Assembly (NCBI GenBank): GCA_007833815.1
Contig: CP033464.1
Coordinates: 4,768,001 to 4,832,000 of the forward strand
Source of the DNA: Brevibacillus laterosporus
Lineage (GTDB): Bacteria > Bacillota > Bacilli > Brevibacillales > Brevibacillaceae
Direction: 5' to 3'
DNA: 64,000 nucleotides
Shown here: in pieces, positions 23,171 through 27,188 of the stretch
Layout of the letters: each line of letters begins with the position of its first letter
Numbering within the stretch: the first letter of the stretch is position 1
Notes under the pieces: generated by a model
What the model was told of the DNA's origin: nothing
Seen by the model: the letters and a program-made list of their open reading frames with translations, nothing else
Database searches by the model: none
Translations under genes and position numbers: made by a program

Positions 23171-24238
23171 TTAGTCTTTGATTGTAAATAGAATAGATTC
23201 AATATTAGTTTGTAGATTAGGCCAATAGTATTGCTTACCTTGATAGAGAACATAATTTCCTTCTACCTTCATTTGATACTGTAATTGATCTACATAAAAG
23301 GTCAGGTTCAATGGAAATGTCGACTTCCCTTGATGTTGAATCGTAGCGTTAGAATGTTGTGTACGTGTAAGCACACGAATCACTTGATGTATTTTCCCTT
23401 GTTGTATGAGGTTTTGTTTCATGAGGTGTGCTTCGTTTTTACTGGTTTGTTGTCCGTCACTTACAGCATTTAATCGTGTTGCTTCATATAACTCTTCCCA
23501 TCCTGTGGTTTTTGGCCTTTCTGGTAACAAATTAGTTACCAGTTTATACAAGGCGGAACTTGTTTGATAATAAATGACTTCTCGCCCAATCACGCAGCGT
23601 AATAAAGTTGGTTGAAGCTGTTCCAAATGAAGCCCACTCTGTCCCTGTGTATAGCTCACTTGATAAGAAGGATAGAGGGGGTACGCATGAACAGATTGAT
23701 CTAACATTTTACTTTCTGATATCAAACGTCTAGCCTCTTGTGCCGTTGTACCCCGCACTGTTACAGTATTTGCCTGTGACAAGTCAACCGCTTTAAATTC
23801 TAACCCACCTAGGTCCTGAGCACTTATCACAGCTTGCCCAAGTTGCTTACGAGCTGTTTGATAGAAAACGCTTGCATTATCGCCTCGATAGGTATTATTT
23901 GCATAGGTGAAACCATGTTCACCTACCTCCATAACCAACGGAGCTTCCTTTTGTCTATAGGCGATTAGTCTGAATTTAATTTCCTGATCCACCAGTGCAT
24001 CCTTTGACATTACCAATGATAAGCGACGATCTGTAAAATTCTTTTCAAAATCTTCCATAGGTAGTGGTATTTCTTGTCCATTCGTAGTGAGGACAGAAAC
24101 ACTTTCCAGTGCCTGAAACACCTGCGAAAGGTCTACTTTTTCTTCTGATCCATAACTGCTTGATTGCGTGGAACAACCAGCAACGACGAAACAAGTCCAT
24201 ATAACGGACATCAAGCAAACATGCCAGCTTTTTTTCAC
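23171..24238 (-). CDS. Putative secreted lipoprotein of unknown function
   Basis: 355 residues. The N-terminus is a lipoprotein signal peptide: two Lys, a hydrophobic core, and a VAGC lipobox giving Cys22 as the lipidated residue. The mature part has no domain I recognise. It is mixed alpha/beta in appearance with several Tyr/Gln-rich strands near the C-terminus (FYVDQLQYQMKVEGNYVLYQ). It lies 38 bp after the AlbA_2 gene, so the two are probably cotranscribed. It interrupts the usual path to sucC. Function unknown. Confidence 0.75.
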   Translation of the reverse strand: MKKSWHVCLMSVIWTCFVVAGCSTQSSSYGSEEKVDLSQVFQALESVSVLTTNGQEIPLPMEDFEKNFTDRRLSLVMSKDALVDQEIKFRLIAYRQKEAPLVMEVGEHGFTYANNTYRGDNASVFYQTARKQLGQAVISAQDLGGLEFKAVDLSQANTVTVRGTTAQEARRLISESKMLDQSVHAYPLYPSYQVSYTQGQSGLHLEQLQPTLLRCVIGREVIYYQTSSALYKLVTNLLPERPKTTGWEELYEATRLNAVSDGQQTSKNEAHLMKQNLIQQGKIHQVIRVLTRTQHSNATIQHQGKSTFPLNLTFYVDQLQYQMKVEGNYVLYQGKQYYWPNLQTNIESILFTIKD

Positions 24239-24276
24239 GCATGTCCCCTCCTGATCTTGCTTCTTTGGCTGTAAGC

Positions 24277-25170
24277 CTACAGTAGTCCCAGACGACGGCT
24301 AATATCGCTCCCCAATTTTCGTTTTACGTAAATTTCTCCAATTTGATGGGGATCTCTCACAATAAAAGAGCGATTGTTCGTTCGAATCGAGACATATTTT
24401 TCATTATTTTTATCAAGTCCGCACATCAATTCAGTCCCAACTTCCACAAATATACTAACTACAAACTTCCCCTCTACTTCCCGTAAGGATATCTTTGGAA
24501 ATGGATGCAGAATCGGCGTGGTCTTATCTTGAATATACTGAGTGATGGCAAGTAAATACTTATCGGGATCACCGTAATGAGCAAGTTCATCATTCACGCC
24601 CACAATTTTTGAATCATCGCTAATACCTAAAAATAAATTACCATTATTACTATTAGAAAAGGCAACAATCGCTTTGACGATCGCTTGCTTTGAATTCAAG
24701 AAGTCCTGCTTAAATTCAATCATATCGTTCTCACCCAGCTTAGTAGCTATAACAGGGTCATCCAGTCTGCCGAGATGGCGAAAGCGACTTAATGCCCCTA
24801 ATCGATACACATAATCTTCAAACAGATCAGCTGGTAATGAGATATCTTCAATGACAGCATCCATCTTCTGCCATAACTGATAGGTTTCTTTAGAAAAACA
24901 TATATCAAAGAGTACTGTGCTCCCTAACGACTTCATGTTCATCCCAACTGCAACACTGTTACGGTAAGCTGTCTGATAAGTACCCACTCCCCTTACCTGC
25001 ATGACCCCTTTTTCAATAAGGAAGTCAAAATACACACGAGGTAAAACAAGTAAGCGTTTCAGCAGCACTGGATGTTTAGAAGGAAGTCGATCATGGAAAA
25101 AATCAAATAAAATCTCGCTCTCAGAGACACGATGGATCTCTGCAAGAAAAGTACATAAGGATTTCATCAT
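24277..25170 (-). CDS. AlbA_2 / Schlafen-domain protein
   Basis: 297 residues. Residues about 147-272 form an AlbA_2 (Schlafen) domain: ENDMIEFKQDF, then KAIVAFSNSNNGNLFLGISD, then a strand ending VEVGTE. The usual N-(T/S)-xGG is SNNGN here. The first 145 residues match no domain I know. AlbA_2 proteins bind nucleic acid; some cleave tRNA or rRNA in defence, others are regulators, and I cannot tell which applies. It starts ATGATG after a weak GGGTGA, about 30 bp from an IS200/IS605-like element. Confidence 0.75.
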   Translation of the reverse strand: MMKSLCTFLAEIHRVSESEILFDFFHDRLPSKHPVLLKRLLVLPRVYFDFLIEKGVMQVRGVGTYQTAYRNSVAVGMNMKSLGSTVLFDICFSKETYQLWQKMDAVIEDISLPADLFEDYVYRLGALSRFRHLGRLDDPVIATKLGENDMIEFKQDFLNSKQAIVKAIVAFSNSNNGNLFLGISDDSKIVGVNDELAHYGDPDKYLLAITQYIQDKTTPILHPFPKISLREVEGKFVVSIFVEVGTELMCGLDKNNEKYVSIRTNNRSFIVRDPHQIGEIYVKRKLGSDISRRLGLL

Positions 25171-25199
25171 TCACCCTGTTACCTTTCCACTGGTTTTAT

Positions 25200-25571
25200 G
25201 AATTAGCCGAGAACACTCGTGATTTTACTCATGAGATGAATCGGCTTCGGACAAAGCGTGTCTTCTGACACGTTACTTGTCCGACTACTTCTTTGAATAA
25301 CTAACAAGAACAGGTATACTAATCTTGTACAGATTGCTCATTGAAAACGGAATGTATGGGGTTGCCATAAGGAATGCTTTGTGGCGTAAAACATTCAAGC
25401 ACCTTCGTCCTCTCTGACCGAAAAGCGAAAACCAAGCAGTAGGTCAGAGAGAAGAGTCCAACGTACACTTTTTTTCAATAACCGTAGGGACTACGGGGAT
25501 AGCCTGCTAATTCTCACTTCGTTGGATGTGATAGCGCAGGAATCTCGTAGCTTTAGCCATGAGAGGTTCAA
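25200..25571 (+). mobile_element. IS200/IS605-like non-autonomous element (PATE/MITE) without tnpA or tnpB
   Basis: About 372 bp. The left end begins after TTTAT (25195-25199) with a two-tier palindrome: AGCCGA (25205-25210) with TCGGCT (25241-25246) around CTCGTGA (25216) with TCATGAG (25229). The right end has the IS605-type hairpin CTCGTAGCTTTAGCCATGAG (25545-25564) followed by AGGTTCAAG. The 20-nt left and right hairpins agree at 15 positions, as the subterminal hairpins of IS200/IS605 elements do. No transposase or TnpB fragment is readable inside. Exact ends are inferred. Confidence 0.65.
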
Positions 25572-25590
25572 GAAGATGTTTTATCCAAGC
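25400..25590 (+). ncRNA. Omega-RNA-like (reRNA) structured right end with a downstream guide-like segment
   Basis: Compact series of helices: CTCTCTGACC (25410-25419) with GGTCAGAGAG (25442-25451), perfect; CCAACG (25458) with CGTTGG (25520); CCGTAG (25482) with CTACGG (25491); CCTGC (25503) with GCAGG (25536); then the terminal hairpin at 25545-25564. This order, ending at the element boundary, is what TnpB-associated omega RNA looks like; the flanking bases after 25571 (GAAGATGTTTTATCC) would be the guide. No tnpB is present, so a TnpB elsewhere would be needed. Expression is not shown by sequence. Confidence 0.55.
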
Positions 25591-25800
25591 TTCCAAGCTT
25601 TGCCCCAATCTTTTTGGCTAATGATTACTTTTTCCTGTTATCAGACTCTTACTCCTACATGTCTTATTCCTTTTTAGTCTATGTGACATGTACTCATTTC
25701 AATTGATATATTTTTCTTATCATACTAAAGTAATATTACAAAACAAAGACAAAAACTTCTCTTTTTCAAATTTATCCATTTGTTCTTACTGATCTCCTTA
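25591..25800. other. AT-rich intergenic spacer
   Basis: About 210 bp between the IS605-like element and a minus-strand terminator. I see no gene, tRNA or clear promoter. Short CAAGCTT and CAAGCTTTG repeats occur at 25587-25600, probably by chance. Confidence 0.35.
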
Positions 25801-25802
25801 AC

Positions 25803-25830
25803 AAAAAAAGCGACCCATAATGGTTCGCTT
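25803..25830 (-). terminator. Terminator-like hairpin, minus strand
   Basis: AAGCGA-CCA and TGG-TCGCTT arms (25808-25830) with seven Ts following on the minus strand. It is a second terminator downstream of the propeller gene, 170 bp past its stop. Confidence 0.6.
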
Positions 25831-25940
25831 TGCTAAACGAATGTAATTAAAAATAATATTTCAATATCTATAGCATAACTCACTGTTGCATTGTTACAGT
25901 TATTCAGAAGAGCATAATCGTTATCGAAGTTTTGACGAAC

Positions 25941-25975
25941 AAAAAAAGAATCGCCTTTGTTGATAAGACGATTCT
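25941..25975 (-). terminator. Terminator after the propeller gene
   Basis: AGAATCG (25947-25953) and CGATTCT (25969-25975) arms, with a minus-strand T-run at 25941-25947. It ends transcription of the gene that stops at 26001. Confidence 0.7.
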
Positions 25976-26000
25976 CAATTTCTAGCCTATTTTCGTAATT

Positions 26001-27188
26001 TTACTTACCAACTGCTGTCACACGTCCATTTTGAGATACAAGATAAATAGTACCGTCCGCGCCTATAGCAGGTGATGAGACTGTATTATCTTTCATGCTA
26101 TATTCCCAGATACGATTTCCTTTTTGGTCAAGTGCGCGCAACATACCGTTTCCTGTTACCATGTAAATAACACCATTGGCACCAATGATCGGAGCTGAAT
26201 CGATTTGATGTCCACCATTGAAGGTCCATTTTTGTTTTCCGTTTTTAGAATCTAAAGCAAAAAACATACCACTATCCGTTCCAACATAAAGCGTTCCGTT
26301 TGCATCAATCGCTGGTGACGAGGTTACTTTTTTTCCAACAGAAATGGACCATTTTACTTTTCCATTTGATCCAACGGCATAGATTGTTCCAGCTTCTGTA
26401 CCTAGATACAGAGTACCATCATTCCCGATCACTGGGGATTGTTTCATCGGAGCATCCATTGTCAGCGTCCATTTCGTTTTTCCTGATGCCGCTTGGACAG
26501 CAAACAATTTACCGTCGGAGCTTCCTACATATACCATTTGATCTTTGGAGATGATTGGTGCTGTAGTTACTGGTGCTGTAGCACTAAATGTCCATTTTTC
26601 TGATCCATTTTCGTTAAATGCTTGTAATTTACCATCGCCAGTTCCTACATAGATCGTTCCATCTGAGCCAAGTGCTGGTGACGTTGTTACTTCACCGACT
26701 GTACGTTTCTCCCACTTTTTCACGCCACTTGGATAAACAGCAAACAATGTATGTTCAGATGACCCTGTATAAATCGTTCCGCCTTTACCAATTACAGTGC
26801 TAGACAAATTGCCCTTTAACTGAGTTTTCCAGTTAATACGACCATTTTGGTAAGCATACAATTCTCCCCCATTTGAGGCTACATATACTGTACCATTACC
26901 AGTAACTACAGGAGAGGCAGTAATAGATTTTCCTGATGTAATAGACCATTTTTCTACTGGATTAGGAACCACATTATAACGTGATTGGCGCGTCCAGTTA
27001 TATGTAGAAGGTTGTGCTGATTGATAATCATAGGTTCCAGCTTGATAACCAGTTCCTTGAGTAAAAGCTGTATTTGTTTGAACTGGCTTTACTGCAACAG
27101 TCTTAGCCAAAATAACCTGTGGTACTACCACTGTCGATAAAATCATGGTTCCTGCTACTAACAGTTGTATTCCGCTCTTCTTTTTCAT
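26001..27188 (-). CDS. Secreted PQQ-like eight-blade beta-propeller repeat protein
   Basis: 395 residues from the ATG at 27188, which gives a Sec signal peptide (MKKKSGIQLLVAGTMILSTV and on to an ALAK-like cleavage region); an upstream in-frame extension of 49 codons has no ribosome site. From about residue 90 there are eight repeats of about 40 residues with the pattern SSPAIGxDGTIYVGTxDGKLxAxxxxGxxKW, one propeller blade each. PQQ-like propellers in BamB and serine/threonine kinases bind proteins or sugars; no enzyme active site is visible. It is a single-gene unit with its own terminator. Role unknown; exported location is inferred. Confidence 0.85.
   Translation of the reverse strand: MKKKSGIQLLVAGTMILSTVVVPQVILAKTVAVKPVQTNTAFTQGTGYQAGTYDYQSAQPSTYNWTRQSRYNVVPNPVEKWSITSGKSITASPVVTGNGTVYVASNGGELYAYQNGRINWKTQLKGNLSSTVIGKGGTIYTGSSEHTLFAVYPSGVKKWEKRTVGEVTTSPALGSDGTIYVGTGDGKLQAFNENGSEKWTFSATAPVTTAPIISKDQMVYVGSSDGKLFAVQAASGKTKWTLTMDAPMKQSPVIGNDGTLYLGTEAGTIYAVGSNGKVKWSISVGKKVTSSPAIDANGTLYVGTDSGMFFALDSKNGKQKWTFNGGHQIDSAPIIGANGVIYMVTGNGMLRALDQKGNRIWEYSMKDNTVSSPAIGADGTIYLVSQNGRVTAVGK

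Follow-up and report, generated by a model that had tools for sequence, protein, structure and literature searches.

A 372-bp IS200/IS605-type element of Brevibacillus laterosporus without tnpA or tnpB, carrying a TnpB omega-RNA scaffold and a separate 5′ RNA module, as a predicted source of guide RNA in trans

We analysed 64,000 nucleotides of the Brevibacillus laterosporus genome (assembly GCA_007833815.1, contig CP033464.1, positions 4,768,001 to 4,832,000), hereafter the window. Positions 25200-25571 of its forward strand are occupied by a 372-bp mobile element, a non-autonomous member of the IS200/IS605 type of the kind known as miniature inverted-repeat transposable element (MITE) or palindrome-associated transposable element (PATE). 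An initial annotation, made from the letters alone, had proposed a stand-alone element with IS200/IS605 ends at this place, and its extent proved exact. A search of the own genome with the element gave 49 matches, and 21 sequences, the window included, were aligned. Sixteen are end-to-end copies with 97.1-100% identity, each with different flanks and divergent outside the same two boundaries. In the other five the left end is replaced (L041), the 5′ part is truncated (L042), an internal stretch is deleted (L043), or the copy has diverged to 84% (L044) and 75% (L045). The pentanucleotide TTTAT stands directly before the left end in 18 of the 21 (the 16 full copies, L043, and L045); L041, L042, and L044 have lost or decayed left ends and hence fall outside this count. 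In the window it lies at 25195-25199 of the forward strand, where the initial annotation had placed it, and we regard it as the target and presumed transposon-associated motif (TAM). The list of open reading frames (ORFs) holds none of 60 or more residues inside 25200-25571, in agreement with the earlier statement that the element contains no fragment of TnpA or TnpB.

The flanking region was searched in six genomes of the genus, own included. In three of the five congeners (G003, G004, and G005) the empty site TTTAT|GAAGATGTT was found, the left flank up to TTTAT being contiguous with the right flank from GAAGATGTT, to give TTTTATGAAGATGTT; because the flanks are contiguous, the insertion took place without target duplication. 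Only part of the left flank is matched in G002; G001 likewise has a partial left-flank match, together with pieces of the element ends at another place. Multiple copies with exact ends and different flanks, inserted 3′ of a fixed motif without duplication, are the features of a non-autonomous IS200/IS605 element. The element has moved in the past, and it inserts 3′ of TTTAT without duplicating its target. Beyond the own genome, one copy with 97.6% identity is found on a Brevibacillus halotolerans plasmid and two copies lie in viral contigs (L094 and L259); when the empty site of the latter was sought in the own genome, its right flank was found only in part.

The left-end subterminal hairpin (25206-25245, forward strand) falls inside a 92-bp match (25194-25285, TTTTAT included, 94.6% identity) to the left end of a tnpA and tnpB element of the own genome, L048 (C4:507050-508847), and the right end matches that of L048 over 34 bp (91%). 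The right-end subterminal hairpin (25544-25563, forward strand) is helix 4 of the covariance model R2 described below. As the initial annotation had counted, 15 of 20 bases agree between the hairpin regions of the left end, CTCGTGATTTTACTCATGAG (25216-25235), and of the right end, CTCGTAGCTTTAGCCATGAG (25544-25563); the corresponding hairpins of L048 share 14 of 20. The window copy carries a G-to-A change at 25549, absent from the other aligned copies, which breaks one pair of the right-end hairpin. In L048 the frames of tnpA (147 aa) and tnpB (387 aa, or 367 aa from ATG) are open, and in a second element, L049 (C4:36572-38196), tnpB is intact and tnpA is broken; the own genome thus encodes two TnpBs with ends matching those of the element, differing at 4 of 367 residues. 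The L048 TnpB has the domains OrfB_IS605, TNB, and HTH, and its motifs GIDVG, IEDL, and DRDVNA (D, E, D) are of the RuvC type. Considering that its ends are common to a TnpA-encoding element, the element is presumably mobilised in trans by the resident TnpA.

Two readings had been left open by the initial annotation, a MITE mobilised in trans or a fixed guide RNA used by a TnpB elsewhere. We favour the first, the mobilisation itself being presumed from the shared ends. A fixed (domesticated) guide RNA serving a TnpB or a TldR elsewhere would agree with a stand-alone scaffold near a gene start: the start codon of an AlbA_2 (Schlafen) gene outside the element (24277-25170, minus strand, from the ORF list; Pfam PF04326) lies at 25170, 29 bp from the element, close to the distance of about 30 bp given earlier. 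Fixed guides of the TldR type have one constant guide and an inactive nuclease. Here every one of the 16 full copies has its own 3′ flank, for which reason this possibility is not favoured; the insertion is also absent from three congeners, and the RuvC-type motifs are present in the L048 TnpB, of which the L049 protein is a near copy. We consider it very improbable.

The right end was then compared with those of elements that carry tnpB. A scan of GTDB contigs for the right-end pattern gave at least 120 loci. Among these 120, 60 have a TnpB-like ORF ending at most 220 nt upstream, the same right end thus occurring beside tnpB; 48 are too short to judge and 12 are without such an ORF by that test, although two of the 12 do have TnpB-like sequence, a fragment in L121 and a 432-aa TnpB (Pfam OrfB_IS605) in L178. 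The model R2 was trained on 10 of 14 cluster representatives of the TnpB-adjacent right ends plus L048, with no MITE among them; L098, L100, L137, and L192 were excluded since their middle part differs. In its alignment 98.5% of the cells of the four named helices pair, and covariation was 0.561, against 0.208 in shuffled and at most 0.148 in slid alignments. R2 finds the last 97 nt of the element (25475-25571, forward strand) as an omega-RNA 3′ scaffold of four helices, with 96.8 bits (E 1.5e-22). For comparison, scores are 100.6-104.7 for four own-genome tnpB elements or fragments, one of which, L048, is a training sequence, and 90.4 for an Enterococcus faecium tnpB element, L233. Helix 1, CCGUAG/CUACGG (25482-25496, forward strand), is compensatory to CCACAG/CUGUGG in L048, and over nine own-genome scaffolds, from MITE and tnpB elements together, covariation was 0.352 compared with 0.164 (shuffled) and at most 0.073 (slid). 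The folding of 25343-25571 has z = -2.85, with none of 200 shuffles as good. The chain of helices with the layout of a TnpB guide RNA, foreseen in the initial annotation, is thus borne out by a model built without the element, and none of the three outcomes named beforehand as speaking against it (no tnpB with a homologous right end, no empty sites, no covariation) came about. Its match in sequence and structure to TnpB-adjacent right ends, as modelled in R2, shows that the right end of the element retains an entire TnpB omega-RNA scaffold, with compensatory changes in it.

It may be argued that the element is a plain PATE in which the end hairpins alone matter, for TnpA, the scaffold being a leftover of the parent insertion sequence and the interior a passenger. 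PATEs of IS605 type are known, and one described copy retains part of tnpB and the whole right end (PMC3119063, PMC7290912). The copies are moreover young (97-100%), so that conservation among them says little. Yet scaffold helices 1-3, outside the terminal hairpin, show two-sided changes between MITE and tnpB elements with pairing kept, and the 5′ half of the element covaries over many genera (see below), which is not expected of passenger DNA. TnpA is not known to require helices 1-3. Taking these points together, we judge the plain PATE unlikely, more probable all the same than the fixed guide.

Upstream of the scaffold, the diverged copies of the element have in common with L232 (a Bacillus arachidis plasmid), L121 (a Bacillaceae strain), L140 (a Firmicutes metagenome-assembled genome, MAG), and L166 (a Clostridiales MAG) a -10-like box, a boxA-like sequence, and two nested helices framing GGUUG...GUAAAA. 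Over seven sequences and 13 pairs, covariation was 0.703; shuffled alignments gave 0.263 and slid ones no more than 0.194. The corresponding model, R1, comprises the boxA-like sequence, helix P1, and GGGGUUG-P2-GCGUAAAA, and places this 5′ RNA module at 25336-25403 of the forward strand with 81.4 bits. A further hairpin, P3, CUCUCUGACC...GGUCAGAGAG, follows at 25410-25451 on the same strand (z = -6.27 for 25409-25453); by eye, L044 and L045 carry two-sided changes in it. Counting the own genome, R1 matches occur in 18 of 398 Bacillota genomes, from 17 of 267 genera, and within the order in 5 of 40 genomes, sometimes in many copies (15 in G424). In 25 further loci (24 distinct) outside the R1 training, a set that excludes the doubtful L277 and L284 and further copies from the same genomes, covariation reached 0.835, compared with 0.256 in shuffled and no more than 0.126 in slid alignments; the alignment was fitted to R1 itself, which favours this value. 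Part of the module loci have ends of IS605 type: where 300 nt or more of downstream sequence is available, a right end of the form GAA-hairpin-TCAA/TCAC is present in 13 of 24 loci (15 of 27 overall) versus 3 of 420 control windows, and the left-end signature GATGAA/GATATAA in 14 of 26 versus 56 of 420. These right ends are of differing types, for example GAATC...GTTCAA, GAAGC...GTTCAC, and GAATC...GTGTCAA.

The module was not recognised in elements that carry tnpB. Its absence there is judged on the 120 loci obtained with the right-end pattern (48 of them too short for tnpB) and on eight own-genome tnpB loci: no convincing match was seen in the 60 tnpB-linked loci, where one match, in L213, is at chance level (15.2 bits, E 0.92) and lies about 1.5 kb from the right end, and the module is absent from the eight own-genome loci. 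The good matches among the 120, in L121, L140, and L166, all stand outside the 60. A phmmer search with seven own-genome TnpA and TnpB proteins gave similar ORFs in 2 of 51 loci, a search that distant TnpBs may escape; in L121 the ORF is on the other strand, about 1.7 kb from the module, and L178 has the ORF and no module. The protein of the latter locus (L178:24-1322, 432 aa) is weakly similar to the resident TnpBs, and its right end is common to L138, L140, and L166. The MITE-like L140 and L166 have an end scaffold much like the one behind the L178 tnpB gene together with the 5′ module of the Brevibacillus element, so that the module goes with different TnpB scaffolds; L138, also MITE-like, has the L178-type scaffold and no module match. 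No Rfam family matched the module stretch of the window up to E = 10, and in 15 module loci at gathering thresholds the single match was Bacillaceae-1 RNA in L121 (7609-7675), far from the module. From these comparisons, the 5′ half of the element is a separate conserved RNA module, outside the TnpB omega-RNA; it is a clearly covarying motif without an Rfam match, present in many genera.

A promoter-like site, TTGAAT-16-TATACT (25293-25320, forward strand), agrees with the consensus at 9 of 12 bases. Three such sites were found in the region where 1.5 are expected by shuffling, and a -10-like box occupies this place in 18 of 26 related loci compared with 41 of 420 control windows. No terminator was found in 25150-25750, and the layout of the element fits the reading as a guide RNA, the scaffold being complete to its last base and running directly into the flank. 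By analogy with the right-end element RNA (reRNA) of ISDra2, the presumed guide is GAAGATGTTTTATCCA, the first 16 nt of the right flank (25572-25587, forward strand), of which the first 9 nt equal the empty sites of the three congeners. No exact match to TTTAT plus this guide was obtained in viral contigs.

The boxA-like sequence GCUCAUUGAAAAC (25336-25348, forward strand) resembles GTTCTTTGAAAACT in the 23S rRNA leader of the own genome. The pattern GYNCNTTGAAAACT occurs there 10 times, nine times in MITE copies and once as GTTCTTTGAAAACT, the only match outside the MITEs, which sits between the 5S and 23S rRNA genes, about 140 nt before the 23S. The reversed pattern, used as a control, occurs 7 times, so it is the locations that are striking and not the count alone. 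The 16S leader of Trichococcus carries CCTTTGAAAACTGAAC, and the gamma-proteobacterial boxA consensus GYTCTTTAANA is one specified base off GCTCTTTGAAA, the form in relatives, and two off GCTCATTGAAA, the form here. Pairing with downstream sequence as the general reason for its conservation was rejected, since long complementarity is seen in 5 of 27 loci only. We grade GCUCAUUGAAAAC as boxA-like and not as boxA.

Taking into account that the element holds no protein gene and a complete scaffold, it may rely on a related transposon for the enzymes needed both to move and to stay in place. In our preferred reading, which we hold to be probable, it is a non-autonomous IS200/IS605-type element turned into a guide-RNA cassette, with predicted use of its RNA by TnpB in trans. 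The resident TnpA would move it, and its own promoter would make an RNA of about 245 nt plus flank. Meeting no terminator, this transcript would run through the right end, and the flank would become the guide. With the boxA-like sequence, the untranslated RNA might evade Rho in the manner of rRNA; of all the steps, this one is the least certain. A resident TnpB would then take up the RNA and trim it, as AmaTnpB does. Once the element is excised, the complex would cleave the emptied donor joint at TTTAT, and repair templated by the sister copy would bring the element back. The promoter and the leader would stand in for what the tnpB transcript supplies in full elements. Retention by cutting of the donor joint has been proposed before (PMC8612924).

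The RNA might also serve the element in some way other than as a cutting guide, for instance by controlling TnpA or TnpB in trans, or by titrating TnpB as a decoy. Since conservation of the 5′ module extends to loci whose right ends differ, it may have a partner of its own, and a segment of the AmaTnpB mRNA inhibits the activity of that protein (PMC10278001). Against such a role, the scaffold continues to its last base straight into the flank, as a guide requires, and nothing resembling a terminator precedes the flank. We regard it as improbable, less so than the fixed guide and more so than the plain PATE.

Several observations weigh against the guide-RNA cassette. The scaffold is only 66/97 identical to that of the resident TnpB element, and the nearest of the 14 representatives is that of Anoxybacillus ayderensis (85%), whose TnpB is 70.6% identical to the resident one; in view of this the resident TnpB may reject the MITE scaffold. 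The last 94 nt alone fold at z = -1.67, with 11 of 200 shuffles as good, and because this energy is unremarkable the helices there rest on covariation. Further pair types do not exceed shuffles in the nine own-genome scaffolds (352 of 500 as high) and were reached by 75 of 500 shuffles in the seven-sequence set of the module; in the 24-sequence set the number of pairs changed on both sides (11) was likewise matched by 75 of 500. Of the 24 module loci for which 300 nt or more of downstream sequence is available, 11 show no IS605-like right end by the pattern used. Among 27 R1 loci the boxA-like start is present in 17 by a loose and 12 by a strict definition and is missing in about a third, counts on which the construction of R1 from boxA-bearing sequences bears, and in 5 of 27 (p ≤ 0.03) the boxA-like sequence can pair downstream, which would be an alternative cause of its conservation. 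The replication orientation of the MITE copies is mostly opposite to that of the insertion sequence copies, which trans-mobilisation does not predict. Finally, the processed RNA of AmaTnpB has a 106-nt scaffold, and a 5′ module is not needed (PMC10278001).

Considering the module beyond this genome, we put forward tentatively, as a proposal that falls somewhat short of an even chance, that there is a widespread, as yet unnamed Bacillota family of IS605 elements without tnpB. In these, an RNA expression module (promoter, boxA-like antitermination signal, and conserved two-helix leader) would take the place of tnpB and would be joined to any available TnpB scaffold. They would be parasites of parasites, making guide RNAs of their own that occupy, in trans, the TnpB encoded by a full element and thereby compel retention of the elements, and the 5′ module would be a portable leader that protects and delivers the guide RNA. 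A stand-alone mobile guide-RNA unit with a promoter-like box is the arrangement expected between a transposon-bound and a trans-encoded, CRISPR-like guide. If TnpB uses the RNA of the element, a few hundred bases could account for the persistence of elements without tnpB at high copy number, and a single strain would suffice to test how non-autonomous IS605 elements escape loss by excision.

By comparison with known systems, the element is of the PATE kind, and what is new here is the 5′ half as a separate covarying RNA module fused to an omega-RNA scaffold. PATEs or IS605-type MITEs are described in Haloquadratum walsbyi (PMC3119063) and Halanaerobium (PMC7290912). The present element is like them in having no protein gene, subterminal palindromes resembling those of resident IS605 elements, no target duplication, and presumed trans mobilisation; the accounts consulted mention neither a promoter, a boxA-like leader, nor a conserved 5′ RNA module, and no omega-RNA function. 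With the TnpB reRNA or omega-RNA of ISDra2 (PMC8612924) and AmaTnpB (PMC10278001) it shares a right-end scaffold of about 100 nt with four stem-loops, a layout in which the 3′ end would read into the flank, and a target motif equal to the presumed TAM. In ISDra2 the flank supplies the final ~16 nt of the reRNA, and the target motif serves as the TAM (PMC8612924). The difference from both is that tnpB is missing here and that the scaffold follows a distinct 5′ module, which has a -10-like box of its own. The repeats bcr1-bcr18 of the Bacillus cereus group (Kristoffersen 2011, as cited in PMC6542083) can be likened by description only, being short interspersed repeats of 100-400 bp with mobility tied to TTTAT. 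Literature searches on TnpB with PATE, MITE, reRNA, and boxA named no paper on the 5′ module, a weak sign of novelty given that most subscription journals lie outside their coverage. Non-autonomous elements or unlinked omega-RNAs may be discussed in the OMEGA paper of 2021 and in a Nature paper of 2023 on TnpB and selfish spread.

Other identities were tried for parts of the element. Group I intron signatures together with omega-RNA are the hallmark of IStrons, and an IStron was rejected as no Rfam intron matched in 24000-27000 of the window up to E = 10. An origin of the interior from tnpB coding sequence was considered with a 17-base interior motif, which was found in 17 viral-contig stretches, two of them true copies; the others lie within various protein-coding genes, of which three or more look like tnpB by eye. 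Because the motif encodes ENQAV in such varied genes, the likeness was taken as chance and this origin was rejected. The Rfam family Ref70 (RF02841, Enterococcus sRNA 70) matches 25476-25630 with 31 bits, below its gathering score of 115, its first helix and next bases aligning to scaffold helix 1 and its 3′ side. Up to E = 0.1 it did not match the E. faecium TnpB element, L048, L044, or L045, and as a sub-threshold hit unmatched in related elements it was rejected as the identity of the 3′ part. Ref70 resembles the omega-RNA scaffold and may itself be a TnpB right-end RNA.

Some further observations concern the module and its relatives. In some families the loop of P2 carries an insert, AUGCGAAAACCAAGC or AUGCGAUAACCAAGC (L302:1501-1590 and L271:1501-1595), that resembles GCGAAAACCAAGC of the P3 loop in the window element. 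One of the 15 copies in G424 (L302:1060-2385) lies between two pieces of an AraC-type regulator-like gene, which by eye it appears to interrupt. Bacillaceae-1 RNA stands directly before the 23S rRNA gene in L374 (1364-1429), and because of this adjacency it looks like part of the 23S leader.

As for orientation, 18-19 of 21 MITE-type copies of the own genome have the left-end to right-end strand on the leading-strand template. For tnpA/tnpB copies or fragments, this strand is on the lagging-strand template in 8 of 10 (and in 5 of 5 from the same family). Local GC skew, applied to 14 of the 15 copies in G424, divided them 7 to 7. With the sign opposite to the insertion sequence copies and no bias in G424, orientation was not used as evidence of TnpA activity. 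Solo end remnants were also seen in the own genome: L057:990-1025 and L058:1001-1036 are right-end palindromes, TTGAACCTCTC...GAGAGGTTCAA, and L053:979-1042 is a palindrome made of two facing left ends. The tnpB element on the Enterococcus faecium plasmid (L233:2501-3947) closely resembles the MITE at its left end (91% over 57 nt). Enterococcus accounts for 380 of the 383 plasmid records with a match to the MITE, those listed matching through the left 57 nt.
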